NCBI GenBank assembly: GCA_031763025.1
Contig: JASSKH010000012.1
Coordinates: 4,745,397 to 4,809,396 of the forward strand
DNA: 64,000 bases
Direction: 5' to 3'
Origin: Macrocystis pyrifera
Taxonomy: Eukaryota; Sar; Phaeophyceae; Laminariales; Laminariaceae
This document shows positions 3,750-56,879 of this stretch, piece after piece. The notes under the pieces were generated by a model. It was given only the letters and a program-made list of their open reading frames with translations, ran no database searches and was not told where the DNA came from. The number at the start of each line of letters is the position of its first letter. The stretch's first letter is position 1. The position numbers and the translations under genes were made by a program.

Positions 3750-4197
3750 TATCACACTACTATTTTATAAGAAAATAAGAAAGCACGTCAGCTGTGAACT
3801 ACCAGCTAAGCCAGTTAGTTGTCTGTGATCGCGACGTAAACGGCTACTACTTGTGCTGGTGGTGCTGCTGTGTCTCTTTGTCGCGACAACCCTAGAAGTA
3901 CGAGTAGGTACCAGGTCTCGTCCAGTTGTCTGTGATCGCGACGAAAGCAGCTACTTGTGCTGGTGGCGCTGCTGTGTCTCTTTGTCGCGACAACCCTAGA
4001 AGTACGAGGTACCAGGTCTCGGCCAGTTTGCCGTGAAGCGGCGACGGACGGCATGCCGAATGGCCCGTTGATGCTGCTGTAACGCCCAAAAATATGCGAT
4101 GTCACGAGTACAGGGGTCACGAGACGGCACTCTCGTACTTTGACAGACGTCTAATTTTTCCCGCTACTTTTCACGGACGCTACGAACTACTATTTTA
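3750..4197. repeat. ~100-bp tandem repeat block, left part of split array
   Basis: Units of about 101-107 bp start TTGTCTGTGATCGCGACG and contain GTCGCGACAACCCTAGA, so each unit can fold on its GTCGCGAC/GTGATCGCGAC arms. The leader CAGCTGTGAACTACCAGCTAA precedes the array. The same leader, units and trailer (ACGCTACGA...CTACTATTTTA) recur at 11972-12580. A short leader piece at 4905-4925 shows that the block was continuous before mobile elements entered it. Confidence 0.85.
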
Positions 4198-4590
4198 GGG
4201 CCATTCCTAACGAACCGAAAAACAATCACGATTCGTGATTTTTGGCATCACGATCCGTGGCATTTCAGTTCTAACGAAAAAAAGCCGAAAAACGTCGCGT
4301 TTCGTGATATTTTCAAATAGTTAACGTTCTGATATTTCAAACCCAACGTTTTTTGGGGGTGTGGAGCAAACTCTCGAGAGTGGGGCACGGCCAGGCCGGG
4401 CTGGGCCGTCCGCACACCTGGCCCAGCCTGTGACATATTCGAATCGCGGGCCGAAGGCTGACCCAGCCTGCGAGATTCCAACTTCACCGGCCGTCGGCCA
4501 AGCTCGTTTCGCGAGATTTCATCTCGCAGGCCGTCTGCTCGGCCTGGCCTGTGACATCCCCAGGTCATTTTCGCGTTTGTCTTCCAGCAG
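4198..4590. mobile_element. Truncated Harbinger-like TIR element (left arm)
   Basis: It starts GGGCCATTCCTAACGAAC directly after TTA and matches the left arms at 4926 and 55470 through the GC-rich core to CTTCCAGCAG. The right arm is missing; the sequence passes at about 4591 into a reversed arm of the recombinase element. The start sits in CTACTATTTTA, which is uninterrupted at 12260-12271. Non-autonomous; no transposase. Confidence 0.75.
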
Positions 4591-4904
4591 TATTACCGGG
4601 TACGTACAACATACAGCAAGCAACAAACGCAGACGTTACTGCGACTATTGAACTCCCCCCCACTGACTCCCTCAAAAGCACGGGCGGGTGGGTGGGAACT
4701 CAAACTAGTCTCACACCTTGGGCCTGTAGCTCTGCCTCCGCATCACTGCGCTGATACGTGTAGGTTGCGGCTACGTACCAGACAAGGTGTGTTTACCAAG
4801 GGCTACGATTCATGCTACCATGAATCACCGCAGTCAGCTGATTGGCTTGAACTTCTTACGTACGTACAAAACTCACATTCTCTCATTCTTCCGAGAATGT
4901 TCTG
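4591..4904 (-). mobile_element. Arm fragment of the split-repeat recombinase element
   Basis: Reverse complement of the A arm (208 bp, here 4904 down to ~4697) plus ~106 bp of the sequence that follows A2 near 11192-11300. Its outer end, at TTCTG/CAGCTG, coincides with the arm boundary seen at 5562 and 10984, then array leader DNA resumes. It shows that the arm and spacer travel together. Confidence 0.75.
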
Positions 4905-5561
4905 CAGCTGTGAACTACCAGCTAAGGGCCGCTCCTAACGAACCGAAAAAAAATCACGATTCGTGACTTTTTGGCATGCCAAAAGATCACGATCCGTGAC
5001 ATTTCAGTTCTAACGAAAAAAGCCGAAAAACGTCGCGTTTCGTGATATTTTCAAATAGTTAAAGTTCTGATGTTTCAAACCCAACGTTTTTTAGGGGTGT
5101 GGAGCAAACTCTCGAGAGTGGGGCACGGCCAGGCCGGGCTGGGCCGTCCGCACACCTGGCCCAACCCGTGACATATTCGAATCGCGGGCCGAAGCCTGAC
5201 CCAGCCTGCGAGATTCCAACTTCACCGGCCGTCGGCCAAGCTCGTTTCGCGAGATTTCATCTCGCAGGCCGTCTGCTCGGCCTGACCTGTGACATCCCCA
5301 GGTCATTTTCGCGTTTGTCTTCCAGCAGTGGCTCCTCCTTCTGGAAATTTCGAGGCCACAACCTCCTCGTTAGCCCGCGCCCAGCGGTGTCTTTGGGTAG
5401 CCGCCCGTTGTTTACAAGCGGCGTACGAAGCAGGGTCTGCCATGCCCCCATTGCCGACCATCGGATACCTTGATCAGGCGTATTTTGAGACACGACAAAT
5501 GTCACGAATCGTGATTTTGTTTTTTTTAGGGAAAAGCTAAAAAAATTGGCGTCATGAATCG

Positions 5562-5769
5562 CAGAACATTCTCGGAAGAATGAGAGAATGTGAGTTTTGT
5601 ACGTACGTAAGAAGTTCAAGCCAATCAGATGACTGCGGTGATTCATGGTAGCATGAATCGTAGCCCTTGGTAAACACACCTTGTCTGGTACGTAGCCGCA
5701 ACCTACACGTATCAGCGCAGTGATGCGGAGGCAGAGCTACAGGTCCAAGGTGTGAGACTAGTTTGAGTT
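5562..5769 (+). repeat. Split direct repeat A1
   Basis: Begins CAGAACATTCTCGGAAGAAT with a short inverted repeat (CATTCTC/GAGAATG) near the terminus, and ends GTTTGAGTT where it diverges from A2. It marks the left end of the recombinase element inside the TIR element. Confidence 0.8.
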
Positions 5770-6775
5770 GAGCGTTCGATCTGATCTGTTTGAACGCTGA
5801 GCAGGCAGGGTTTTCGCCAGCCAGACACTTTTTTTTATTTTTATTTTCTTGATCGAGGGACCTTCCTTGGAGAGACTCGTTCGTTGTGTCTTGTGAGTGT
5901 ACAAGAGGTGCTAGCTGGGAGTGTGGACGGAAGACCTTGGGGACTATGTCGGAGGGCATGGCAAGCGTGGCCGGACAAGCCAGCACAGGAGCGAATCGGC
6001 AAGATCGGTACCTCTGGTATGTCGTAGCACAGTGAGACGTTGCAGGGGATGTGTACTACTGTAGCACAGCAGTGTGACGTTACCCGGGATGTTGCGCCCT
6101 CGGTGGTATCATTATGTTCGCAAATTGCAAACGCATGCGTACAGCAGCGATAGGCCGGTAGTGTGTGCTTGCGGGAATATCATACCAGACGCATCCCCTC
6201 GTACTTTTGCTTGGTACCAAACTCGAGGAAAGGCACGATTATTGATAGTAAATATGAAGGGTTCAGCAGAAGTGCGGATACAGCAGCAGGGTTTGTGCAA
6301 CAGTGGTCGTACGTTCTTTCAAGTGCTCGTACTTTTATTAATAATATAATGCGAAATATCATACCTCATGCGAGACTTTTATCGGTGGTACCAAACTCGT
6401 GAAAAGGTTATGTGAGTATAACTGGTACAGCCATGCGTATAGAGCAGTGTTCGTGCAGCAGTGGTTGTATGTACGATATGTCAAATGCTCGTACCGGGGT
6501 ATACTACCAATGTATGGGATAGCGGTTTCCCGAAACTAGGGCCTGTGCAGTATTCTGGTAGAGCTTACTCTGAGCTATTGGTGCTCTGATTGTTTCTTGG
6601 TGGTATGAGATTATCAGAGCATACAGGCTGTGTAGCTGGTAGCGGTGGTAACTGGCATTTATTGTCCTTCGCTACAAGAATACGTGGATTGGGGTCTAAC
6701 TGGTACCGGTTGCTCCACTGTAGCTTAACCACCTATGGTGGTACAAGTTGCTGGTCGCGAATCGGGCGGGTCGCG
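5770..6775. other. Left interior of the recombinase element, no gene seen
   Basis: About 1 kb of unique sequence between A1 and the minisatellite. Short reading frames exist on both strands but none resembles Gag, reverse transcriptase or RNase H. It includes a T/A-rich run near 5830-5845 and a weak internal repetition around CAGCAGTGTGACG at 6015-6090. Confidence 0.5.
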
Positions 6776-9700
6776 TCGCTTCCTCGTGCATATTACGTTA
6801 GCCGTTAATCCGGGAGAAGTTTCCACGAGCGGGTTCATGACCTCCGTGGGTACACCGCGTATCGCCGCCGAAGCGGATTTCGTCGGTTCTCGCTTCTTCG
6901 TCTGCGTAGCACCCGTCCACAGGGGGGTCGGGGATGCTGTCGCAGTGTGTGCGCCTGCTTCAGCGAAACAGGTTGCATCTTGTTGACTTCCTCGTCCGTG
7001 TTTCGTGTGCGGTTCATTCGGGGGAGCGTGTGCCACAAGTTGGACCATGTGCTATTGTAGTGCGCGCGTCTGTTTCAGCGAAGCAGGTGTCGCAACTCCT
7101 TGACTCCAGTGTCCGTGTCTCGTGTGCCGTTCATCCGGGAAAGCATGTGCCACAAGTTGGACTGTGTGCTGTTGCAGCATATGCGTCTGCTTCAGCACTA
7201 CAGGTGTCGCGACTCGTCGGCTTTCTCGTGCATATCACCAGTCGACAGGGGGACGGTGTGCTGTCGCAGTGTGTGCGCCTGCTTCAGCGAAGCAGGTGTC
7301 GTATCTTATTTATTTCCTTGTCCATGTTTCGTGGTGCTATTGCAGTGCATAGGTCTGTTTCAGCGAAGCGTCACTCTTTGGCTCCCCGTCCATGTTTCGT
7401 GTGCCGTTCATCTGGGGAAGCATGTGTCACAAGTTGGACAGTGTGATGATGCAGCATGTGCATTTGCTCCAGCGCTACGCGCCCATGTTTCGTGTGCGTT
7501 TGTCGTTCATCCGGGGAAGCGTGTGCCACAAGTTGGACCGTGTGCTATTGCAGTGCGTACGTCTGTTTCAGCGAAGCAGGTGTCACTCTTTGGCTCCCCG
7601 TCCGTGTTTCGTGTGCCGTCATCCGGGAATCCGGGGAAGCGTGTGCCACAGGTTGGACCGCGTGCTATTGCAATGCGTACGTCTGTTTCAGCGAAGCAAG
7701 CGTCACTCTTTGGCTCCCCGTTCGTATTTCGTGTGCCGTTCATCCGGGGAAGCGTGTGCCGCAAGTTGGACCGTGTGCTATCGCAGTGCGTACGTCTGTT
7801 TCAGCGAAGCAGGTGTCGCTCTTTGGCTCCCCGTCCGTTTCGTGTGCCGTTCATCCGGGGAGGCGTGCGCCACAAGTTGGACCGTGTGCTATTGCAGTGC
7901 GTACGTCTGTTTCAGCGAAGCAGGTGTTACTCTTTGGCACCCCGTCCGTGTTTCGTGTGCCGTTTATCCGGGGAAGCGTGTGCCACAAGTTGGACCGTGT
8001 GCTATCGCAGTGCGTACGTCTGTTTCAGCGAAGCAGGTGTCGCTCTTTGGCTCCCCGTCCGTTTCGTGTGCCGTTCATCCGGGGAGGCGTGCGCCACAAG
8101 TTGGACCGTGTGCTATTGCAGTGCGTACGTCTGTTTCAGCGAAGCAGGTGTTACTCTTTGGCTCCCCGTCCGTGTTTCGTGTGCCGTTCATCCGGGAATC
8201 CGGGGAAGCGTGTGCCACAAGTTGGACCGTGTGCTATTGCAGTGCGTACGTCTGTTTCAGCGAAGCAGGTGTCACTCTTTGGCTCCCCGTCCGTGTTTCG
8301 TGTGCCGTTCATTCGGGGAGGCGTGCCGCAAGTTGGACCGTGTGCTATTGCAGTGCGTACGTCTGTTTCAGCGAAGCAGGTGTCACTATTTGGCTCCCCG
8401 TCCGTGTTTCGTGTGCCGTTTATCCGGGGAAGCGTGTGCCACAAGTTGGACCGTGTGCTATTGCAGTGCGTACGTCTGTTTCAGCGAAGCAGGTGTCACT
8501 CTTTGGCACCCCGTCCATGTTTCGTGTGCCGTTCATCCGGGAATCCGGGGAAGCGTGTGCCACAAGTTGGACCGTGTGCTATTGCAGTGCGTACGTCTGT
8601 TTCAGCGAAGCAGGTGTCACTCTTTGGCTCCCCGTCCGTGTTTCGTGTGCCGTTCATCCGGGCAAGCATGTGTCACAAGTTGGACGGTGTGCTGATGCAG
8701 CATGTGCATCTGCTCCAGCGCTACGCGTCCATGTTTCGTGTGCGTTTGTCGTTCATCCGGGGGAGCGTGTGCCACAAGTTGGACCGTGGGCTATGGTAGT
8801 GCGTACGTCTGTTTCAGCGAAGCAGGTGTCGCAACTCTTTGGCTCCCCCGTCCATGTTTCGTGTGCCGTTCATCCGGGGAAGCATGTGGCACATGTTGGA
8901 CTGTGTGCTGTTGCAGAATGAGCATCTGCTCCAGCGCTACAGGTGCCGTGACTCGTCGGCTTCCTCGTGCATATTTCGTTAGCTGTTCATCAGGGGGAAG
9001 GTTTTTTGCGATATGTTTGGTGACCTCCGCGGGCACACCGCGTATCGCCGCCAAAGCGAATTGCGTCGGTTCTCGTTTCTTCGTCTGCGTACCACCCGTC
9101 CACAGGGGGGACGGTGTGCTGTCGCAGCGTGTGCGCCTGCTTCAGCGATGCAGACGTCGCTCTTGTTGGCGCCCTCGTCCGTGTTTCATGTGGCGTTCAT
9201 TCGCGGAAGCGTTTGCCACAGGTTGGACCGGGTGTTGTTGCAGTGTGTGGGTGTGCTTCAGCGCTGCATGTCAGATATTTGCAGATGCCGCACTTCGTCG
9301 GCTTCCTCGTGCATGTTTTGTTTGCCGTTCGTCTGGGGAAGCATGTGATACACGTTGGACTGTGTGCGGTTGCAGTGTGTGCAGTGTGTGCATCTGGTTC
9401 AGCGCCGCGCAGGCGTCGCAACTCGTCGGCTTCCTCGCGCATGTCCGTGTGCCGGTCATCTGGGGGGGTTCTTCGCAACACGTTTCGTGGTGTCCATGGA
9501 TACACCGCGTATCTCCGCCGCCGCGGATTTCATGGGTACCTGTTTCTTCGTATGCGTAACAGCCGCCTAGAAGGTAGGACGGTGTGCTGTTGCAGTGTGT
9601 GCGTGTGCTTCAGCGAAGCAGGTGTCGCATCTTGGTGTTTCTTCGTATGCTTAACACCCGTCCACAGGGGGAGGCAGTGTCCTGTTGCAGTGTGTGCATC

Positions 9701-9860
9701 TGCTTCAGCGAAGCAAAGTGTCGCAACTTGTTGACTTCGTCGCCCTTATTTCGTGTATCGTTCATCTGGGGAAGTATGAGCCACACGTTGGTTTGTGTGC
9801 TGTTGCAGTGCGTGTGCGCAGCACCCGTCCATGAGCGGGGAAGGTGTGTTTTTTCAGTCA
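6776..9860 (+). repeat. Minisatellite array, ~111-121-bp units
   Basis: The core spans about 7450-8700. The marker AGTTGGACCG (or a near match) recurs at 7531, 7651, 7764, 7875, 7988, 8099, 8220, 8331, 8444, 8565 and 8678, giving spacings of 111, 113 or 120-121 bp. The longer unit carries a repeated CCGGGAAT. Pairs of units are themselves duplicated (7764/7875 and 7988/8099). More diverged units extend to ~6776 and ~9860, with a CACCGCGTATCGCCGCC block repeated near 6860, 9040 and 9505. All three forward frames stay open for long distances because the unit has few stops and is not a multiple of three; I do not call a protein. Confidence 0.9.
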
Positions 9861-9909
9861 GTCAGTGATTTTCTGTCCTGATCCGCGAGCATTCTTGGGC
9901 AATTTTTTT

Positions 9910-9942
9910 TCCCAGGTGGTTTTTTTTTTTTTTTTTTTTCCA
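9910..9942. repeat. Poly(T) tract
   Basis: Two T runs, the longer about 22 nt, separated by CCCAGGTGG, just after the minisatellite. Confidence 0.9.
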
Positions 9943-10459
9943 CCTGGTTACTTTTTCCCCTTGTGTTCTGCGAGTTGGGCTGTTTATACCGTCCGTGTGC
10001 GACGGACTGATGTTGACCTCAATCGCGAAACCGTTCAACTTGCAGCGCAGTGCACCCCGCGTTGAGTGTGGTTTCGTCAGTTGAAAGGTGACCTGCTTGG
10101 GAAAGGGGCATTTTGTACGTGTGTTCGGGTGTTGGTTCGTTGCGCACCTTCGCACGTTCGCGTGTATGTCTTGTTACTACCTTTGTTTTTCCTCGCCGGA
10201 CCCCTCGTTACGTGCTGCGTCTGCAGCGGCGGATTGTCTATGCGGACTCCGCTTCATCGGCCGATAACCCAGCGACGAGTGGTTGCGTTGGCGGGAGTGT
10301 GCGCACGAGTACGCTCGGCACTCCCGAGGATTGGAGGCGCAACGAACTCGTCGAAAGGGGGAGTTGTACCAGAGGGGTTGCAGCCCGGCGGTTGATGGAC
10401 GTGTTTCGCCACGGGGCGGGACGCCATCTGGATAGCAAACGGAGTGGCCTAGGAGGGTC

Positions 10460-10770
10460 GTGACAATGGGATCCCGCCGGACCTGGGCGGGAGCGGGTTG
10501 ATCCACCTAAGGTGTTGCAGCGTGAGGGCCGATGGGCGTCCGATGCGTACAAGGCGTATGTTCGCAGTCACGGAAAGGATGCCAGTTGGGTAGCGGACGT
10601 TATGGCCCAGGAAGGGATGAGCGGTGGGATCCAGCCGGGCCAGGACACTGAATGGGGGCGAGTTAATTCACTCTTAGAGGTGAATAGGCAGAAGCAAATA
10701 ATGGTGAAGTGTGTTATCACATGCGTTCCCTACGAGATTGCAAGTGGGAGGGGGAAGGAGTCGTAAGAAT
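10460..10770 (+). pseudogene. Tyrosine recombinase C-terminal relic
   Basis: The conceptual product contains VLQREGRWASDAYKAYVR. A G-R-W-x-S-D-A-(Y/F) block followed a few residues later by the nucleophilic tyrosine is typical of the C-terminal end of DIRS, Ngaro and Crypton recombinases (known for the families). Its place directly upstream of B1 is where such elements carry the recombinase. The rest of the catalytic domain cannot be followed with confidence, so this is treated as a fossil fragment. The repeat layout supports the call independently. Confidence 0.5.
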
Positions 10771-10803
10771 ACATCAGTAAATAGGGTCAACTCCCATGTG
10801 TGA

Positions 10804-10983
10804 TGGAGGCTGGCGTCGAGAGTTCTGTGTCGCCAGTTGGGTTGGGAGTTGACTCGAGTATACGGATGTTAGCGCGGGGTTGCCATTGGGGCAGCCCCGG
10901 GGGGGTCACCCCTTCTCCAACCCCCCTTTCCGGGCGGGGGGTTGCACATTAATATAATACAACTTCGAAAGCAAAGTGCAAAG
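10804..10983 (+). repeat. Split direct repeat B1
   Basis: Starts TGGAGGCTGGCGTCGAGAGT and ends AAAGCAAAGTGCAAAG directly against A2. It contains a GC-rich inverted repeat (GGGGTTG...CAACCCC, and GGGGCAGCCCC) around 10876-10942. About two differences from B2 in 180 bp. Confidence 0.8.
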
Positions 10984-11191
10984 CAGAACATTCTCGGAAG
11001 AATGAGAGAATGTGAGTTTTGTACGTACGTAAGAAGTTCAAGCCAATCAGATGACTGCGGTGGTTCATGGTAGCATGAATCGTAGCCCTTGGTAAACACA
11101 CCTTGTCTGGTACGTAGCCGCAACCTACACGTATCAGCGCAGTGATGCGGAGGCAGAGCTACAGGTCCAAGGTGTGAGACTAGTTTGAGTT
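10984..11191 (+). repeat. Split direct repeat A2
   Basis: Same 208 bp as A1 with one difference seen (GGTTCATGG for GATTCATGG). The sequence after it (11192-11300) also follows the A arm in the fragment at 4591-4904. Confidence 0.8.
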
Positions 11192-11698
11192 CCCACCCAC
11201 CCGCCCGTGCTTTTGAGGGAGTCAGTGGGGGGGAGTTCAATAGTCGCAGTAACGTTTGCGTTTGTTGCTGTATGTTATACGTACCCGGTAATTTCGCTGA
11301 TGGTGCGACCGGGTGTCGTAGATTGCGCGAGTGGCGGCGTGGGCTAGCCGCCTTCTTTGGCGTTTGGGGTTGTTCGATGCAAGTGGGGTTTCTTTATATC
11401 ATACTATTATAGTTGATAAAAGTAAACGTGGCGTTGACGTGGTGTTGCATCGGCTCGGATTTTGCGCGCAATCTGAAAGTATCGGAGAAAGGGGTTATCC
11501 GTATATTAACATTGAAGTGCATTGTGAGTTTAAATGCACTTGTGTTATTTGTGTATGCCTGGTACAAGTGCGTGTCGATTTTCTCACGTGTGAGGTTATC
11601 TTGTACTTGGTGTGGTTTCTCGAGTTATTTGTCAGAAACGGCTTTTCTGATAGCGGCTTGGTAGGCTGGCGTCGAGAGTTCTGTGTCGCCAGTTGGGT
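11192..11698. other. Spacer between A2 and B2
   Basis: About 507 bp without recognisable coding potential. The last ~35 bp (11663-11698) duplicate the start of B2. The first ~106 bp are shared with the arm fragment at 4591-4904. Confidence 0.6.
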
Positions 11699-11878
11699 TG
11701 GAGGCTGGCGTCGAGAGTTCTGTGTCGCCAGTTGGGTTGGGAGTTGACTCGAGTATACGGATGTTAGCGCGGGGTTGCCGTTGGGGCAGCCCCGGGGGGG
11801 TCACCCCTTCTCCAACCCCCCTTTCCGGGCGGGGGGTTGCGCATTAATATAATACAACTTCGAAAGCAAAGTGCAAAG
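11699..11878 (+). repeat. Split direct repeat B2
   Basis: Direct copy of B1. Its last base before TGATTTTTTTTG is the right end of the recombinase element. Confidence 0.8.
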
Positions 11879-11971
11879 TGATTTTTTTTGTCGTGATTCA
11901 CGACAAAAAAATCACGATTCACGACAAAAATCTCACGAATCGTGATTTTTTTTGTTCGTTTGGAGTGGCCC

Positions 11972-12580
11972 TAAGCCAGGTAGTTGTCTGTGATCGCGAC
12001 GTAAACGGCTACTACTTGTACTGGTGGTGCTGCTGTGTCTCTTTGTCGCGACCACCCTAGAAGTACGAGCAGGTACCAGGTCTCGTCCAGTTGACTGTGA
12101 TCGCGACGAAAGCAGCTACTTGTCCTGGTGGTGCTGCTATGTCTCTTTGTCGCGACAACCCTAGAGGTACGAGGTACCAGGTAACAGGAGTCACGAGACG
12201 ACACTTCCATACTTTGACAGACGTCTAATTTTCTCGCTAATTTTCACGGACGCTACGACCTACTATTTTACAAGAAAACAAGAAAGCACGTCAGCTGTGA
12301 ACTACCAGGTACCAGCTAAGCCAGTTAGTTGTCTGTGATCGCGACGTAAACGGCTACTACTTGTGCTGGTGGTGCTGCTGTGTCTCTTTGTCGCGACAAC
12401 CCTAGAAGTACGAATAGGTACCAGGTCTCGTCCAGTTGTCTGTGATCGCGACGAAAGCAGCTACTTGTTGTGCTGGTGGTGCTGCTGTGTCTCTTTGTCG
12501 CGATGTCTCTTTGTCGCGACAACCCTAGAAGTACGAGGTACCAGGTCTCGGCCAGTTTGCCGTGATCGCGACGATAGCAC
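11972..12580. repeat. ~100-bp tandem repeat block, right part of split array
   Basis: Continues the array at 3750-4197 after the nested insertion. Two sub-blocks (11980-12180 and 12320-12575) are separated by the trailer and leader also seen on the left, implying a larger repeat of ~330-450 bp. The second sub-block has a small internal duplication of TGTCTCTTTGTCGCGA near 12487-12515. Confidence 0.85.
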
Positions 12581-14045: not shown

Positions 14046-17000
14046 CTTTCGCCTCTGCGATTCTGCGCACGTGCATTGGCGTCAACCGTTGTAGTCGCGG
14101 TTGCAACCATCCTGTGCCGTTCTACCGATGCCTCCTTCGCATCCTCATGACATTTCCGCATGAAGACCTCAGCCCCTTCCTCGACCCGTCGGAACCATCT
14201 GCCGGCGTTCTATGCTGCCTCGCGCCACCCTACGAGCTTGATGTCAAACTCCTTGAGGCCCTCCCCAAGGTGCCTCATCCAGTCCCACTCCTGTCCTCCA
14301 GAGTAGCCCTTACCCCCGACCATCTCCCCAAACATCACCTTCGGCAGGCGCTCCTCTCCCATGCGTGTCACAAAGCCCGCAAACAACAGTCTACGGGCTG
14401 CGTACCGTCGTCTCTACGCTCTCGGAGGTTGTCCTGAGAAGCGCGCATAAGATAGAATGTGGCCTTCGCGCTTTCGTTTTCGCCAGCCGAAGCATCGGAG
14501 GAGCATCTTGTGGCGGACCTCCCGTAGCCTGCCGCAATCAGTCCTGCACGGGCTCCAAGCAACGCATCCGTGGAGCAACGTTTCGATCACCTCGGCTCTC
14601 AGCATCCGCACCTACCTTCAGGCGTCGGCGCACACCCGGGCGGTCATATATTTCCATATTGTACCGCCCGAAGCACGCCCATGCCCTCTGGAGTCGACGG
14701 GTTACCTCGACACTTTCGCTCGTCCATTCTGCGCTGATAGCCCCGCCCAACTACATACACTCGAGTGTTTGTTTGTACACTTGGCCGGCTGCGGTGACGG
14801 TGAACGGCACTTTCCCCCCATCTTTCGTCTGCAGGCACATTATCTCCGTCTTGGCCTCCGAGACCGATAGGCCGGACGCAGCACATGCAGTCACGATCAC
14901 CGTCATTTTCCTCTCCAGGTCGTTCGGTGATCGTGCTACAATGCCCGCATCGTCAGCATACATCATTGCACACAATGTCTGGACCTCTTAATCCTTCCCC
15001 TGTCCGTCGGCGTGTCCGGCCCGTGCCTTCCCCCTCCTCTTTTTCCCCTTCTCACCTTCTTTCGTTGGATTTGCACCATGTTGGCCGTGATGGCTTTATC
15101 AGCGGCGAAGCATTTCTCCGCCACATTCAGCACCGCTGTGAAAAACATGTTGAACAGCAATGGCCCGGACACACACCCTTGCCGAAGACCCTGCTCCACG
15201 TCGAATATATCTGATGAGCAGTCGCCATCATCCAGCTGCACGCATGATCGCATGCCGTCGTGGAATTTCCATTTAACGGTGAGCATTCTAGGTGGCACGC
15301 CAAAGCGAGCCAAGACAGTCCACAGGAGGGTTCGGTCGACGGAGTCATAGGCTTTGGTGAGGTCGACAAAGCACATGAACAGCGGGGTGTCCTTCCCTGC
15401 CAGTTCCTGCAGGCGTCGCACCACGAACATCATGTCGACCGTCGAACGTTCGGACCACACTGCTCCTCTGGCAGGATACCTTCCCGTTCGCAGTGGTCAT
15501 TGAGGCGGCCCGCGATGACTTTGAGGAGCACTTTGCCGGCATGCGCGACAAAGGAAATGCCACGATTGTTACCACACTCCATCCTGTCTTTCTTTCTTTC
15601 TTCCTGTGCAACACATTAATTGTTGCATCCTTCCATTGCTCCGGCACGACCCCTCCCCTCCACACAGCAACGATGATCTCGTAGAAGCTTGCGAAGGTGT
15701 GCGAGTCTCCTCGGCCAGGACCTTCAGCAGTTCGGCTGGGAGACCATCAGGTCCAACCTGGGAGGTGCTGATACACTGGCGACCTTAAGCGATGATTCTC
15801 CGGCGGTCCCAGGGGGTGACACTCTAGCATTCCTGGGGGCAATGGTGCTCTGGTGATTCCGGAAATTTGTGCTCTGGAGATCCGGGGTCATGCTACCCTG
15901 ACGATTCCAGGCGATCCTGTCCTGGTGTTCCGAGACGGTTTTCTTGCTGTTCGCCATCGCCCGGATCGCGTCTTTCCCCTCGTACCTAGACGGGACGTCA
16001 TCCAGCGGACTGCACGAGGGCCAGACCTTGAGCTCGTTGACGATAGTCGGATCCAGGGTCAATGACTTGGTGTTTAGCAGCTTATGGAACCACCTTACCC
16101 ATCGTTCCCGGATGAGGCCGATGTCCCGCAGAAAACTACCTTCCTCATCCATCCGTAATGTGAGTAGGTCTTGCACATCTGTGAGCTAGGATCTTTAGGG
16201 GTGTTTTTGAATTGAAAAGTGCGTAGCGCGGTCTGCACCTGGGAATCGTCATCCGCAATTATTGAGAAATTTCCTGGTTAGATGCTAACGCGGTGCAGCC
16301 GCGTTTACGGAAAAGTTTGGCCCGTTTTGGCTGCAGCTTGGAGTCGGGGTTAGGGTTAGGGCCAGGGTTAGGGTTAGGGGTTGGGTTTGGTCTTCGCCCG
16401 CACCTTGATCCCAACAGGAACCAAAATACCTGAACAGCCTATCAACCTGAAGATCCGAGCTCACAGATTGTGTTGGGACTTCCCTGATGTACTGCGAAAT
16501 AAAAATCTTCTTCCCTTCCACATTCATTCCCTAAAGGTGCTTGTGAAACCCAAACTGATCGCCTTCTTGTATATACCTTTCGAGTTGACTGAAGTATTCT
16601 TCCAAGAACTTCTGCACTACGTCCGCCCTCGCACGTTTGAGCTGTTTCGTGGCAACCTTCAAAATTTTCTGCAGATTTTAGTCGTTCGGATTAGGGCGTA
16701 GTTGCGTCCTCGCATCTTCCCTTTGCTGCTATTGCGAGTGCACCTCCGCTTTTACCTCTTCGGGCGTGCACCAACCCAGCGGCCCTTGCTTGCGACTGTT
16801 ATGAGGTACTAGTTTAGCAGCAGTCGACGGCACGATCTCCACTAGAGCAGTTGCCTTATCATCGACACTACCAATTGGACCAGGCGGTGGGGGGATGCGT
16901 TTGGTTATCTCCCTTGTAGATCAATAGCTCGCTTTCCCCTTCCTGCGTTCACCCTACGATTCGGCGCAAACCGCCCCAAGAGGCGAATATTGCAGACCAC

Positions 17001-22385: not shown

Positions 22386-25300
22386 AAATTAACTCATGTT
22401 CATGATGAAGTTCCTGTGGTAACGGAAAGCGTCTTTCGGAAGGGGTTTCGTCAAGAAGCCCGCATGTTCGTATTCCGACCTCACATGCGTGATTTCAAAC
22501 TCTCCCTTTTCGACAAGTTCTCGCAGGAAGTGGTGGCGGACATCTATGTGCTTCGAGTTAGAGTTCGTCACAGGGTTGACCGCTATTTGGATCGCACCCT
22601 TGTTGTCTTCAAAAACCTGGATGCACGGATCCCCAAAATCAGGCAACAGGAAACGCCACACTGACCATAGAAAAGAGCCTCCTTGAAACCCTCTGCCATC
22701 GCAACGTACTCTGCTTCACTCGTGGAGAGTGTGGAAGTCTTCTGCGTCCTAGAAATCCATTGAATCGCCGCACCCCCACACATCACTGCTGCACCCGAGA
22801 CAGACTTCCTCCTAGTGTCTCGGGGGGCATAGGCTGCGTCTGCATAAACCACCAACTCTAATCCACTGCCCCTCTGGAAAGTAATATCGTAGCTACTCGT
22901 CACCTTCAGATACTCCAAAATCCCTCTCGCAGCCAACCAGTGTTTGAGTTTGGGGGCATGCATATACCTCGCGACCGCCCTTACGGCATTTGAGATATCA
23001 GGTCTCGTCTGGTTAGAAAGCCACAGCAAACTGCCTACTAGTTCACGATACGGCCAGTCACCAGTGGGCTCCTCCTCGTCAAACACCTCCAGGAAAAGAT
23101 CAGGGGAAAGTGGGGTGTTCCTACCAGTGGTCACGCCAAATTGCTTGACCGTCTTCTCCGCGAAAGATTTTTGCGAAATTGACAGTAAACCCGCGACCTT
23201 GTCTCTGGAATAGTGGCAACCGGCATACCATCGCAGCTCACCAAGGTTATTGATGGAGACTACGCGGTTCAGGTCCTCGCAAAAACGGTCACATCTCTCC
23301 TTACGGCCTACCGCAAAAATGTCGTCGACGTGAACCACAGCAATGATGGAAACAGACCCCGCCTCGATTAATCGAAAAACACACGGATCTGCGAGGCTCT
23401 GTTCAAAACCAAGACTCTTCAGGCGGGTGACCAAGTGTCTATGCCAGGATCTCGACGCCTGTTTCAAGCCGTATAGGCTACGATTTAAGCGAATTACTTT
23501 GCCGCTCAGATTACCACAGCCCTGTGGCATCCGCATCAAAACGAGTTCCTGTAGTTCGGCCTGGACAAACGCTTGTTGTACATCGAAATGGCATAAATCT
23601 AACTGTAACTCGCAGGATATCGCAGCCATCATACGGATACATGACGCGGCGGGGGTGGGGGCAAAAGTCTCATAGTAATCAACTCCGGGGCGTTGGCTAA
23701 ATCCTCTCGCCACTAGTCGCGCTTTCGCCTTCACTACCTTACCATGCTCATCTGCCTTCCAAGTGAACACCCATTTGGCCGATACCACGTTCCCTCCCTT
23801 TTGCTGCTAAGCATCCCCGAAAGTCCCAGCTCCCTCAAGTCCGGCAATCTCCGTCTCCATCGCATGGGACCAGTTCGCATGGTATTGCGAGAGCATCGCC
23901 TCCTGGTAGGTCGCGGGTTCCGAGAGTTGTCCCGCGTGACATGTTGGCAGAGCAGGGGCGGGTTGGTTGGGCGGGCGCTGGTTGAAAAGTGTGTGGTCAG
24001 CTGGCTGCGATGTACCAGTAGACGCCTGGTGGTATGCCCTCGTCCTCGCGCGCGTCCGCCCCAGTTGGAGAAGCCCGTTGTCCGGGGGACCCTCGTCGTC
24101 CTCGATCTGAGGGTTCTCGGCCCCCGGTAGGGATGACGGTGACATCACCCCCGGCGTCGGCGGCATCTCCGGTGGCGCCGGCGTCATCACCGGCGGCATC
24201 CCCACTTGAAGCGGCGCCTTCGTCATCGCCCGTGTCCTAGCGCGCGTCCGCCCCAGTTGGAAGAGCTCGTTATCCCGGGGGCCCTCGTCGTCCTCGACGT
24301 GATGGTTCTCAGCCCCCGGTGGGGATGACGGTGAAATCACCCCCGGCGGCGGCGGCGGCACCCCCGGCGTCGGCATCGGCGGTGGCGGCACCTCCGGTGG
24401 CGCTGGTGTCATCGCCGGCGTCGGCGGTACCGCTGGTGGTGCCGGTGACATCATTGGTGGTATCCCCGGTGACACAGTCGCCAGCTCCGGTGGTAAATAC
24501 CTGATGTGCAGATCGGCCTCCCACGGCTCCGCCACCGAGTCCTTCCTCACCTGAGGCGCAGCCTCGATGATCGGCTTGCGCTCCACCTCCCAAGTGACGT
24601 CCCGCGAGTTGCTCGTACGCCCGCATGCCGTGACCACCTTGACGCAGTCGCGCGGATGGTTTCTCCCCCGTTGAGGTAAAAACACCGTTCGGCCTTGGGG
24701 TCAGACTTGTGGGTGCGGTGGATACGGTGGAATCCGGGCTGCATGAAGGCGAGTGTGTTGGGCGGCGGCAGTGTCCCAAAAAATGCCTCGTGCGGCGACT
24801 TGAAATGGGCGTTCGCCAACGTCGCCGTGGTGTTCAGGCAGTCGTTCATGTAGATGGCTGCTTCCACCCAGTAGCGGTCCAGGTTCGGGAGCTGCCCGGG
24901 GAACAGCCGGGGGGCCTCAAGGCAAGCGGCCATACCGCCTTCCTGGATGAGGCCGAGTCCACGTTCGACCACACCGTTGTGTTTCGGTCCGTCGACCCCG
25001 GTGTGCTCGTGTCGGATTTTCTCATTGGCGCATAAGTTTGCGAAGAGTGCGTTCACGAACTCTGTGCCGTTGTCCGTCCGGAAACACTCGACGTCTGCGC
25101 CGACGTCAGCCAGACATTTTCGGGTCGCCGCGGTCACGTCGGCGGCGCTCTTGCTCTTGAGGGGGTATAGCCATCCCATGCGTGTCGCGTCATCCTTGAA
25201 CAAGATCAGGTACATGGTGGGTGTCCTCCGGGTCCGATGAAACGTGCGTCGCGTACCTGCGGCCACGACTGGTTCCCACCTCCGCCGCGGCCGGCCTATG

Positions 25301-26785
25301 GCGGCCATGGTTGATGTCCGCCACCGCCACTGGCGTGCGAATCCTGCCTCTGCCGATTTTGTTTCGGCTTCCCGTTCTTGTTCCCCGAACGTGCCCCTCC
25401 CCAGTCCTGGCCTGCCCAGCCTTGACCATGCTGGTGTTGCTGTTGGTGTTGATGCGGTGGCTGATGTTGATTGTGTGGTTGCTGCTGTTGCTGCTGTTGC
25501 TGCTGTTGCTACCCCCAGTGCCCAGTGGCGCCACCACTCGCCGTGCCACCTCTGCCGCCCGTGTAGTGGCCAGGGCTGGGACCGGGGAAACTCCCCTGTC
25601 CACCTGCTCCACCTCCACCTGGGCTATCAAGACCTGTGCTGAGCCATCGATCATTTTCCTCTTACTCGCTTCCAACTCCCGGTACGTTATGCGAACCCGG
25701 TCCTCGATCATGTTGAGGGTCAAGTTCTGGGCGTATTGCAGGATTTTCTTGTCCACCTCGTATTCGGACGTCAGGCATTGCAGCAGGTGGGGGTTGGCTT
25801 CCTGATCCGTTTTTGGGATCCCTACTTCGGAGAGCTTTTCTCGGATGATGCTCATCCTCTCGAAATAAAGGGTGGGGTCCTCCCCCTCTTTCATATGGGC
25901 ATTGATGTATTCTCTCTGGTATGCCTGCTTGTCGAGGTCGTCGCTTGGGACGTAGTGCCGACGTACCTCGGCCATCGCAAGACTAGGGCTGCCTATGTCA
26001 TAGATCTTGTATAACAGAGACGAATTAGTCAGCGCGTTGGTGATACCCTCGTATGCCCTGCGAGCAGCGGCTACCCTTGCCGTTCCGAAACGGTAATCGA
26101 GGTCTTGTTGACTCCTTCTATTTGGGCCCTGCAAGACTATCGGGTCGCTAGTTTCCTTCTAAACATCATCGCAGGTGGTAGTAACAGCCCATGATAGAAA
26201 TTGCTTCGACCATTTAAAATAATTTCCCTCCTTACTGCCATCAAGTTTCGGTGAAGGCTTACCAAAACCAACTAGAAACGTGCCTGGCTGACCATGTGGC
26301 TCCAGTGGGCGTATTCCTCCTCCAGCCCCCTGCTGTAGCCTCTACATCCTCGTTCGTTCCTCCTCTCTGATCTCCAGCCGGAGCGACATCTCGGCCATCT
26401 CTCGTTTCAGGCGGGCGATCTCATCATCGCGGCCTGCGGCTCCGTCCTCCTGCGAAGCCTCGTTCCTTCTACTCGTTTCTGCTCCGCCCTCTGGCGGAGC
26501 AGTTCCGCCCTCTGGCGGAACAGAGTTTCGCGCTCCTGCGCTACTAGCCATTTCCGCGGCCTCTGCCGCGGCGTTGCTGACTGCCTCTGCTGCCGCTGTT
26601 ATCGCCACTCCTGTAGCTCTCCTGGCTCTGTCGACCTCGTTGTCGCCAGTGCCTCTGCTCGGTTGACGTCCCTCTGGCCTCTGCATCCGAAAAACTGAAA
26701 ATCTCTCGCTCGTCCTCGAACGGGGAGTTGCTCTCCCGGCGTAGCCCCAACCAGCAAGTGCGTCTAATTGGAACAGTCGCTAGCG

Positions 26786-45700: not shown

Positions 45701-46073
45701 AGCGAGCCGATTCATGTTATTGACTTCGATTACGGTAAATCGGCTTCTTCGCCGAAACCGACTGAAGTTCAATCCAAGTTTCGCTCCGATTCAAATTTCT
45801 ACACAAAAGTCACAAACCAGTGTCCAATCCCCCCTAGCTGCGTCACCTGTTCCAGAAACGGTAGAGGACCATGGGCAGGTCGCCGTCGAGGTGGTAGTCC
45901 AGCCGCTCCGAGGTCCGGAGGAGCTCCGCCTTGAAGCGGCGGGAGAGGTCTTCGGGAGACGCGCCCGTGTCCTCCAGGGCGGCCGTCGTCTCCTCCTCCA
46001 GGAACACCCCTAGCGACCCCGTGCTCTCTCGCACGTCGCTGTTTGTGTAGTAGTCGGTCCATACCCTCCTCGC
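42515..46073 (-). CDS. Host gene of unknown function, last five exons
   Basis: Five minus-strand exons with GT-AG introns and consistent phases: 46073-45847, 45314-45233, 44219-44139, 43559-43200 and 42781-42515 (stop TGA at 42517-42515). Introns are 532, 1013, 579 and 418 bp. The visible part is ~338 residues and the 5' end is not found. The peptide begins ARRVWTDYYTNSD, passes LPMVLYRFWN and ERDLFHCPRWIELIAETRKQ, then a MORN-like phrase (GTICYPNGNIFEGE), a Ser/Thr/Pro linker, FLEDGLADEAVILQRHLRSP and an acidic, helical C-terminus. I do not recognise the family; a single MORN-like phrase is too little to name it. All exons are GC-rich and free of stops, unlike their surroundings. Two LINE tails sit in the introns. 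Confidence 0.6.
42940..43180. repeat. C-rich intronic tract
   Basis: CCACCCCACCCCATCCCACC-type sequence inside the last intron of the unknown host gene. Confidence 0.7.
43200..43559 (-). CDS. Unknown host gene, exon (n-1)
   Basis: Acceptor CACCCCAG|GTCGAC, donor GACGAG|GTTCGT; 120 codons. Holds a Thr run from an ACC repeat, SSPGMSSPSRG, then VRTISGLVSLTVGFLEDGLA and HPLLRLASPSSTEVDFPHMP. Confidence 0.6.
43715..43835 (-). mobile_element. Poly(C)-tailed LINE 3' end fragment (minus, intronic)
   Basis: G run 43718-43732, then the inverted tail TGCACTCGATACCATGCTAG...CATAGACCCTCGCATCCC. It matches 57220-57335 and lies in the 579-bp intron. Confidence 0.7.
44139..44219 (-). CDS. Unknown host gene, exon (n-2)
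   Basis: Acceptor CGAGCAG|ATGGAC, donor GGGGAG|GTGGGT; exactly 27 codons in phase 0, including the MORN-like phrase GTICYPNGNIFEGE. Confidence 0.55.
44640..44785. repeat. Dispersed repeat with TTGCCTCAGAAGGCAAA (intronic)
   Basis: Second copy of the 39530-39675 repeat, in the 1013-bp intron of the unknown host gene. Confidence 0.45.
45233..45314 (-). CDS. Unknown host gene, exon (n-3)
   Basis: Acceptor ATGTTTAG|AGGTCG after a pyrimidine-rich stretch, donor AAGCAG|GTGAAG. One base completes an Arg codon from the previous exon, then 27 codons (GRAIDVYERDLFHCPRWIEL...). Confidence 0.55.
45580..45700 (-). mobile_element. Poly(C)-tailed LINE 3' end fragment (minus, intronic)
   Basis: G run 45584-45621 with one C, followed by TATTCATTCGTCATTTGATC and TCCCTTTCGAGACGGAGCG. 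This is the inverted 3' tail of the LINEs at 57.4, 59.0 and 60.1 kb. It lies inside the 532-bp intron. Confidence 0.75.
45847..46073 (-). CDS. Unknown host gene, exon (n-4)
   Basis: Acceptor AACCGCAG|GCGAGG, donor AACAG|GTGACG; 75 codons plus two bases. The product is acidic in the middle (FLEEETTAALEDTGASPEDL), then basic-helical. Confidence 0.55.
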
Positions 46074-46094
46074 CTGCGGTTTGTACGCGGAGAC

Positions 46095-46530
46095 CGCACG
46101 ATGGGATGGCATAAGACGGGATGGAATGAGATGGGATGGGATGGGATGGGATGGGATGGGATGGAATCGGATCGGACGGGACTGCCGGCATGGGATGGGA
46201 TGGGATGGGATAGGATGGGATGGGATGGGATGGGATGGGATGGGATGGGATGGGATGGGATGGGATGGGATGGGATGGGATGGGATGGGATGGGATGGAA
46301 TCGGATCGGACGACACTGCAGGCATGGCATGGGATGGGATGGAGTGGGATGAGATGAGATGAAATGGGATGGGATGGGATGGGATGGGATGAGATGGGAT
46401 GGGATGGGGTGGGATGAGATGAGATGAGATGGGATGGGATGGGATGGGATGGGGCAGGACGGAACGGGATGGGATGGGATGGGATGGGATGGGATAGGAT
46501 GGGATGGGATGAGATGGGATGGGATGTAGA
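46095..46530. repeat. (ATGGG)n pentanucleotide satellite
   Basis: GATGGGATGGGATGGGATGG over ~430 bp with interspersed variant blocks GGAATCGGATCGGAC...CTGC...GGCAT at ~46155 and ~46297, so it is partly higher-order. Located immediately upstream of the first visible exon of the host gene, probably intronic. Ser-His-Pro-Ile-Pro frames over it are not proteins. Confidence 0.92.
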
Positions 46531-46925
46531 TATGAGAGCGAATAAGTGAACGAAGACGAGGCTACCTTTCCGCAAATACACGGGCAGGACATCCCTTCCA
46601 AGGAGACAACACAGAAACACAGCACCACGACAGTGGTCTTTCACCGCGCGAGCCCCGAAAGTCGAGGGCGTGGCCGCTTCGGCTAGCGACGACAAGCACC
46701 CGCCAGAGAGGCGTGGGGGGAGGAGTAAACCTCGTGGTTCTAAAACAGATCCCGCGGGAGAGACGTCAGCGGCCCACACGATCATGAGCAGCAGCCACGA
46801 AAACCTCGCCACATACTGCAATTCTACTAGCATCGAATAGGTAGTATACAGACAGACGCACCACGAAGCTGACAGAGCTGAGTACCGACGAATCTCATTG
46901 GTACGACACACAGCTGACGTTGTAC

Positions 46926-47034
46926 TATTACGGGGGACCATAGTAAATAGGACCAAATATTGTTGGCAAAAATAGGTAAATACATAGGTTTTTGTGTGTA
47001 CCGTAGGTCCTATTTACTATGGCCCCCCGTCATA
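46926..47034. mobile_element. MITE family A, copy 7
   Basis: TATTACGGGGGACCATAG...GGCCCCCCGTCATA; near-consensus. Confidence 0.85.
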
Positions 47035-55373: not shown

Positions 55374-55469
55374 CAAACGTAAGGATCGCTTGGGGTGACG
55401 ACACCAGCACCCATACGGCCCTTCCATTCATGGGGAAAAAAAGCCTTACCTGGTATGATTTTAGTCTAA

Positions 55470-56211
55470 GGACCGTTCCTAATGAACCGAAAAAAAATCA
55501 CGATTCGTGACTTTTTGGTATGAGAAAAGATCACGATCCATGACATTTCAGTTCTAACGAAAAAAATCCGAAAACCGTCACTTTACGTGATATTTTCAAA
55601 TAAAAAAATTCCGATATTTTCAAACATAACGATTCTTGCGGGTGGAGCCAACCCTCGCGAGTGGGGCACGGCCAAGCCGGGCCGGGCCGACCGCGCCTGG
55701 CCCGGCCCGTGATATACTCGAACGACGGGCCGACGCCTGACCCAGTCTACGAGATTCCAATCTCACCGACCGTCGGCCAAGCCCGGTCCGCGAGATTTCA
55801 TCTCGCAGGTCGTCTGCCCGGCCTGGCCTGTGACATTCTCAGGTCATTTTAGCTTTTTTTTCGTCGAGCTGTGGCTCCTCCTCCTCGAAAATTAGAGACC
55901 ACAACGTACTCGTCAGCCCGCGGCCAGCGGTGTCTTTGGGTAGCCGCCCGTTGTCAGCAGAGTCTGCCATGCCCCTATACCGGCTTTCGGATACCGTTGG
56001 TTCGCGTGGGTTGCGTAGTGCCTTGATCAGGCGTATTTCAAGACACAACAGATGTCACGAATCGTGATTTTGTTTTTTTAGGGAACATCTAAAAAACTTG
56101 GCGTCATGAATCGGGGTTTTTTTTTTTGTCATGTTTCCCGACAAAAAAATACACGATTTTAAGACAAGAATCTCACGAATCGTGATTCTTTTTGTTCGTT
56201 AGGAATGGCCC
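55470..56211. mobile_element. Harbinger-like TIR element, intact short copy
   Basis: 742 bp, starting GGACCGTTCCTAATGAAC and ending GTTCGTTAGGAATGGCCC, flanked by TAA at 55467-55469 and 56212-56214. The ~40-bp TIRs include TCACGATTCGTGA palindromes. The centre is GC-rich (GGGCCGGGCCGACCGCGCC). No transposase. It serves as the uninterrupted reference for the copies at 4198 and 4926. Confidence 0.85.
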
Positions 56212-56879
56212 TAAGTCAACTCGGACTTGAGTCGCACCGCGAAACACACTACGATTGCGAGTGTACCGCAAGCAGTACACACATACAAGCGGGTAGAAAC
56301 GGAGAGTTCGCGTTCAGAAGGCGCACAGCAAGCAGTGTGTCTGCCGAATCTACTCAGTCAGACAAAACGATTCGCGCCGCGTGGGATATACAGGACCTTC
56401 TGCAACAACAACGTCGCGCCAATCTCATCTGTCTGCTCGGTACGCACAAAGGGCTTTTTCCGGCGGGGGAAAAACCACTTCGAGACTTCAGGGGGAGCTC
56501 GAGACTTCAGGGGGAGCAAGTCACGGGGCATAACGTCGAATACAGCATCGGCTGCACGAACCCGCCCTTGGCTGCTGGGTTTCTCCAACCGTAGCAACCA
56601 CAATGCAAGGGGGTTCGGTCCGACACGCGCGCAGCAATGCAACAAATACTAATCGGCCTGCTGCGCACTCTCTCACTATTCTATGATATACCAGGTATTT
56701 CATGACGCTATCTAAGGCAATGTGAGGACCGCTGTCATACAAACAAGAAGACCAAAGGGTCCATCATACATTGCCGTCCATAGAGGCGCTTGACTGAAAA
56801 AAACGCTACACGTACCTGCCTCCTACGTACGTATACTATGTACAGCAGTAATTGCAAGGTTTAGCATGGAAATCGGGGG

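Follow-up and report, generated by a model that had tools for sequence, protein, structure and literature searches.

The repeat architecture of the insertion

The window analyzed here, a stretch of 64,000 nucleotides from the brown alga Macrocystis pyrifera (contig JASSKH010000012.1, positions 4,745,397 to 4,809,396, forward strand), contains an insertion bounded by direct repeats within a host repeat (Table 1); coordinates are those of the window, and other copies in the genome carry L numbers. Two kinds of repeat, A and B, occur in the order A1, B1, A2, B2, with B1 joined straight to A2 and a spacer of ~507 bp between A2 and B2, an arrangement that had been read from the letters of the window alone (the original prediction) and was borne out by repeat comparison. 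The coordinates and difference counts given there for the 208/208 and 180/180 bp repeat pairs were also right, with 1 mismatch in 209 positions between A1 and A2 (5641 A / 11063 G) and 2 in 180 between B1 and B2 (10885/11780 and 10946/11841), and the GRWASDAY motif placed upstream of B1 was located at 10527-10550, inside an open reading frame (ORF; 10512-10766) ~250 bp before B1. Because a G at 5561, 10983 and 11878 is common to all three junctions, the ends of the element are ambiguous by one base. The repeat layout, fixed ends, a precise empty site, recurrence in the genome and a full-length partner with three long open frames, each described below, identify this feature as very likely a recently inserted, non-autonomous Ngaro-type split-direct-repeat retrotransposon of the DIRS (tyrosine-recombinase) order, in support of the earlier call of a young, precisely inserted split-direct-repeat element of tyrosine-recombinase type.

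Table 1. Features of the element and its insertion site in the window (RT, reverse transcriptase; aa, amino acids; TRF, Tandem Repeats Finder)
Feature	Position	Strand	Remarks
Separate inverted fragment: A2 and 101 bp of spacer	4592..4905	-	97% to 11292-10983; inside the same host repeat; missed by the original prediction
Host repeat, left half of target site	4922..5561	+	80% to 55466-56113
Whole insertion	5562 (or 5561)..11878	+	Split-direct-repeat element, plan A1-interior-B1A2-spacer-B2
A1, left terminal split direct repeat	5562..5769	+	208/209 identical to A2; G at 5561 ambiguous
Left interior	5770..6700	+	Found in 9/17 fetched A1-bearing copies; no nucleotide match to L051
Scattered codon relics of RT/RNase H frame (L051 aa ~599-652)	6780..9531	+	tblastn of L051 ORF2, 10 places, E 9e-7 to 0.003
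Minisatellite, units of ~111-117 bp and degenerate units	6935..9730	+	TRF
Decayed tyrosine-recombinase relic (aa 195-378)	9988..10479	+	37%, with stops; tblastn E 4e-16
Recombinase C-terminal 63 codons with GRWASDAYKAY	10506..10694	+	90% identical to L051; tblastn E 1.6e-33
B1, internal repeat, abuts A2 directly	10804..10983	+	178/180 identical to B2
A2, internal repeat	10984..11191	+	Pairs with A1
A2-B2 spacer, 507 bp	11192..11698	+	467 bp in autonomous copy L051
B2, right terminal repeat	11699..11878	+	Pairs with B1; last base ambiguous
Host repeat, right half of target site	11879..11978	+	88% to 56120-56218
Second host-repeat copy without element (paralogous empty site)	55466..56218	+	Same window; missed by the original prediction

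A DIRS1-like element was considered and rejected, as neither inverted terminal repeats nor an internal complementary region was found at the window element when inverted pairs of at least 30 bp were sought between 4500 and 13000. All such pairs in this interval came from two sources, a short palindrome of the host and the separate fragment near 4585-4905, and inverted arms around the B|A joint were at chance level (1056 of 2000 shuffles as good). The fragment is one partial copy of the element family. It is flanked by a direct duplication of part of the host repeat (4184-4591 and 4912-5329, 94%), which suggests rearrangement about an older element remnant.

Integration at the target site

The window flanks, when joined across the insertion, matched an empty host copy in L033 over 126 bp at 99.2% identity with 0 gaps. 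Integration was thus precise, with neither target duplication nor loss, and the prediction that excision would leave a seamless host sequence was confirmed; host copies free of the insert were found as paralogous empty sites in L033 and at 55466-56218 of the window. A flank-repeat test was then applied to the 18 copies in which both flanks were readable, comprising 16 of 20 longer stretches fetched from the genome, the window and L051, the full-length partner. Flank repeats did not exceed 3 bp in 15 of the 18; for the other three the test is uninformative, as they sit within (TAA)n or TTAGGG-like repeats. Paralogous empty sites were sought among the sequences in hand, and 9 of the 14 copies outside (TAA)n-like repeats had one that extends 15 bp or more past the joint in both directions, several of them gapped. 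Integration without target-site duplication is a trait of the DIRS order, Ngaro elements included, and was seen in the window, from its empty site, and in those 15 copies. Long terminal repeat (LTR) retrotransposons, which have contiguous LTRs and a target duplication of 4-6 bp, were ruled out by the split repeats, the precise empty site and the flank-repeat test.

Position -2 of the left flank is A in 15 of the 18 copies, and position -3 is A or T in 17 of them, as raw counts without a background control. This bias fits strand exchange at a short A/T-rich site beside the end of B, which reads ...CAAA. All 21 B1 copies continue with G after CAAA, whereas B2 copies continue with A (7), G (7), T (4) or C (3), as expected if the B2 base derives from the target. 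Four of the 18 copies (L051, L035, L046 and L048) lie inside (TAA)n-like microsatellites, a further sign of A/T-rich target choice. The host repeat family itself (window 4922-5561 and 11882-11978) has received three separate insertions of the element among the copies read (window, L033 and L038), two of which share the GAATC/GTGATTTT motif; this hints at a preferred target.

Recurrence in the genome

A search of the genome (537 Mb, 223 contigs) with the 521-bp B1-A2 stretch returned 40 full-length matches at 98-100% identity, the window's own included, and a 41st partial match (40 of 1425 candidates scored). The exact 34-mer of the B|A junction occurs 66 times, while exact short patterns gave 207 A starts and 299 B ends; the reversed controls all gave 0, that for the junction showing that the repeats are no product of chance. 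As A starts and B ends each number more than twice the joints, partial copies and variants must be common, and the exact patterns let variants escape, such as L051, whose A departs from the pattern. The first 100 of the 207 A-start sites comprise 27 at an exact junction, 31 that are possibly A1 and 42 single ones, which are candidates for solo A-spacer-B remnants. The boundaries are fixed: of 30 loci, among them that of the window, 27 have their right end at window positions 11876-11878 and three (L009, L014 and L021) stop short, and the left end falls at the same base in all 19 copies with a readable A1, the window and L051 included. A1 was present in 17 and B2 in 19 of the 20 longer stretches. 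The searches with A, B and the B1-A2 junction by which the original prediction proposed to check its reading therefore found the same boundaries again.

The copies differ in their interiors. The left interior of the window element is lacking from eight A1-bearing copies (L034, L036, L039, L042, L044, L048, L049 and L050), and its presence in only part of the copies points to more than one subfamily; L050 is a 1.9-kb deletion form. The ~507-bp spacer, which had been put forward as a distinguishing trait, did not hold up as one, since L051 and other pairs of B ends show comparable spacings and the spacer is thus not special in this genome. The first 100 of the 299 B-end sites listed include 28 close pairs, of which 16 are 845-860 bp apart (partner type) and 9 are 890-900 bp apart (window type). 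A tandem array with a unit of ~1,185 bp was also observed at L052 (C191:5661400-5665600), where three units contain A and the first 230-243 bp of the A2-B2 spacer; it is apparently a satellite seeded by a truncated element end, and nearly the same spacing occurs on the opposite strand in C156.

A full-length partner and the coding remnants of the window element

A full-length relative with the same termini, a find that the original prediction had said would support its call, was made at L051. This copy is 6.4 kb long and consists, in order, of A1, frames of 431, 898 and 397 aa (counted stop to stop), B1A2, the spacer and B2, with A1 and A2 identical over the first 207 bp. The 431-aa frame is gag-like, the 898-aa frame is RT/RNase H-like, with YVDD and an RT-like motif order, and the 397-aa frame is tyrosine-recombinase-like, with TRASE, HSLR and GRWASDAYKAY; we take YVDD to be an RT signature and TRASE, HSLR and GRW..Y to be recombinase signatures. 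Measured from stop to stop, and thus with start codons set aside, the second and third frames share 154 bp, which leaves no obvious room for a methyltransferase. Pfam gave no methyltransferase match in L051 either, and as it also missed the RT and the recombinase this silence is weak and the lack of room is the better argument.

Genome-wide, 15 recombinase frames were full-length and free of stops among 104 scored of 3337 candidates, and the RT-like core of L051 had 118 scored matches at 56-100% identity, of 2079 candidates. Six recombinase frames (five full-length and one covering aa 1-386), on contigs within the first 100 of the 299 listed B sites, were checked for nearby ends; all six have a B end 260-300 bp downstream, and five have a second B end ~1.1 kb downstream.

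The last 1.4 kb of the window element is ~91% identical to L051, and one 131-column stretch of its recombinase relic is 77% identical to L051 at the DNA level. ORF 10512-10766, which includes GRWASDAY, had no Pfam match. As its own recombinase is a relic and its interior is mainly tandem expansion, the element probably moves by means of proteins from full-length relatives that share A and B.

Origin of the minisatellite

The original prediction described the interior as mainly a minisatellite. The array is real, with a TRF core of 12.5 copies of a ~113-bp unit at 7497-8916 and degenerate units on either side, but it is not unrelated filler, as it matches part of the RT/RNase H frame of L051. 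Nucleotides 6652-6729 of L051, ~26 codons of that frame, are 72-77% identical to the repeat units over 77-78 bp, so the array most probably arose by expansion of a scrap of the frame. The direction of change, judged from sequence comparison, was probably from coding stretch to minisatellite, which suggests a route by which a coding fragment of an element becomes its minisatellite. Of the 18 elements, 15 carry an array with a 113-bp unit in 8.5 to 18.5 copies. In L046 the unit is 117 bp long and the copy number 2.3, and in the remaining two, L050 and L051, a search for units of 90-130 bp found none.

Similarity of the paired repeats within copies

The A1 and A2 repeats of one copy are more alike than those of different copies: 27 differences were counted, shuffled pairings averaged 48.8, and not one of 2000 shuffles reached so low a value. 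This holds when L051 is set aside (27 differences, shuffled average 37.4, again 0 of 2000). The paired repeats of L051 share six minority A variants and three minority B variants, and in six other copies one minority A variant each is common to A1 and A2. Across copies, the only fixed differences found between A1 and A2 or between B1 and B2 fall at the two final bases of A1 and the final base of B2. The likeness of A1 and A2 within copies fits the copying of one A from the other in each cycle. In the accepted picture of such a cycle, the circle is closed with the help of the internal B1A2 joint.

Classification and proposed mobilization

Beyond the features noted at the outset, a Ngaro-type placement involves the enzyme activities of L051, an RNA intermediate, a circle and mobilization in trans, which we infer. 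A transcript made from the element would be reverse transcribed, the internal B1A2 junction would guide circularization to give a circle with a B|A joint, and a recombinase would insert this joint into the chromosome at a short A/T-rich site, leaving the target unduplicated. The proteins for these steps would be borrowed in trans from full-length relatives with the same A and B repeats.

Several points count against this placement. The 30 loci and 20 stretches were picked by closeness to the B1-A2 stretch of the window, so that their uniformity there is partly built in. Three of the 20 stretches have no A1 within the fetched DNA and one has no B2. Within-copy likeness of B1 and B2 is at most a faint signal (41 differences; shuffled pairings average 46.4, and 83 of 2000 are as low), and it vanishes without L051 (35 differences, shuffled average 34.7, all 2000 shuffles being as low). 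A single full-length partner, L051, was read, and its RT and recombinase are predicted from motifs, with weak profile support. Pfam returned no domain for its three frames at E 0.1 and no significant domain for three L051 segments; a Pfam match to Peptidase_A17 (a Pao retrotransposon model) at E 0.007 was below that model's cutoff, and RVT was not matched. The recombinase frame had weak matches only, to a PHROG integrase (E 0.019) and, in a search of the PDB, to Cre (E 0.07). PDB searches found nothing for the RT frame and only unrelated chains at E >1 for the RT core, while a PHROGs search with the recombinase and RT frames gave no significant domain. No relative was detected in viral-contig scans with the recombinase and RT frame or in a phage tblastn search with the RT frame. 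Any current mobility, too, would be a reading from genome sequence.

Split direct repeats define Ngaro and PAT elements (PMC4157794, PMC9210276), and the window element and L051 have them in the form A1...B1A2...B2. The repeats are similar in size to those of DIRS-53_XT of Xenopus, for which an A of 236 bp and a B of 152 bp are given in PMC9210276. L051 would further resemble Ngaro elements in that a putative RT/RNase H frame is followed by a putative recombinase frame, both predicted from motifs, with no methyltransferase found. In Cafeteria, Ngaro types 1-4 are described with the plan written B1A2B2 and with isolated repeats scattered in the genome (PMC8547959); isolated repeats are likewise scattered in M. 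pyrifera, but A2 and B2 of the window lie 507 bp apart, and the window copy differs from Ngaro elements in having no coding capacity and a minisatellite.

The main alternative to Ngaro is PAT. The PAT group has split direct repeats and counts algae among its hosts (PMC4157794, PMC3266345), and a derived Pat1-like lineage without a methyltransferase is described (PMC4157794), so that a lineage from methyltransferase-bearing DIRS/PAT elements that has lost this domain is possible, if clearly the less probable origin. A methyltransferase would be expected in PAT, Toc and Kangaroo elements, which share the split direct repeats, yet L051 has no match to one and its frame overlap leaves no obvious room; nor is its recombinase inverted, unlike that of Kangaroo (PMC4157794). 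In the brown alga Ectocarpus, moreover, PMC12477816 gives 15 Ngaro families, amounting to 2.45% of the genome, against five PAT-like families.

Precise insertion with no target duplication, together with a recombinase-like frame, would also suit a Crypton-like DNA-only transposon that excises as a circle and reinserts without reverse transcription. Cryptons have a recombinase and no RT, whereas L051 has a long frame with an RT-like motif order including YVDD, the core of which has the many scored matches given above, and the internal B1A2 repeats fit a retro-type cycle; a Crypton-like origin is accordingly improbable. That segmental duplication or recombination made the A/B arrangement with no element involved is very unlikely because the ends recur: A does occur apart from exact junctions, and one array repeats a unit containing A in tandem, but the same ends occur in different flanks, alongside a precise empty site and a coding partner with the same ends.

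With a Ngaro-type placement preferred, the original suggestion of a non-autonomous lineage not yet described stands in its first part; the kind is known, since both Ngaro and PAT are defined by split direct repeats and Ectocarpus, a brown alga, is rich in Ngaro. No description of this particular family was found in the literature searched, which was mostly non-subscription and lay outside the supplementary Ectocarpus family lists. The window element well illustrates a kind of mobile DNA that is already known; it is not a new kind.

TOC1 of Chlamydomonas reinhardtii has incomplete coding capacity and split repeats, holds a block of tandem repeats in its interior and makes no target duplication. 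In structure it is probably the nearest precedent for a split-repeat element with an internal tandem block such as that of the window, and it differs in its presumably other host lineage. It is called a retrotransposon-like element, with 59 insertions in total (PMC7722844).

Split-repeat recombinase retrotransposons are poorly understood and, to our knowledge, their circle step has rarely been tested. This genome offers an exceptionally clean natural experiment: its numerous, nearly identical non-autonomous copies, full-length partners sharing their ends and precise empty sites allow insertion chemistry, target choice and trans-mobilization to be read from sequence. The step between the last 1.4 kb of the element, ~91% identical to L051, and the adjoining recombinase relic, at 37% (protein), raises the rather doubtful idea that ends taken again and again from the autonomous family keep the non-autonomous one mobile. 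Template switching in the course of reverse transcription would renew a decayed parasite, with the minisatellite as filler that keeps the length at ~6.4 kb, and if true this would amount to a two-component system of autonomous partner and renewed parasite. This step in identity would also be accounted for by selection on a cis-acting region at the 3' end.

Other features of the window

A Copia-type LTR retrotransposon in several frames lies at 22583-26134 on the minus strand (RVT_2, E 1.7e-45; rve, E 4.5e-10; gag, E 4e-9). The minus strand also carries an RT fragment at 14963-15460 (RVT_1, E 1.6e-11), probably, as a guess, from a LINE-like element. At 45799-46956, again on the minus strand, long ORFs consist largely of short Ser-His-Pro-Ile-Pro repeats and are most likely a simple-sequence array rather than a gene.

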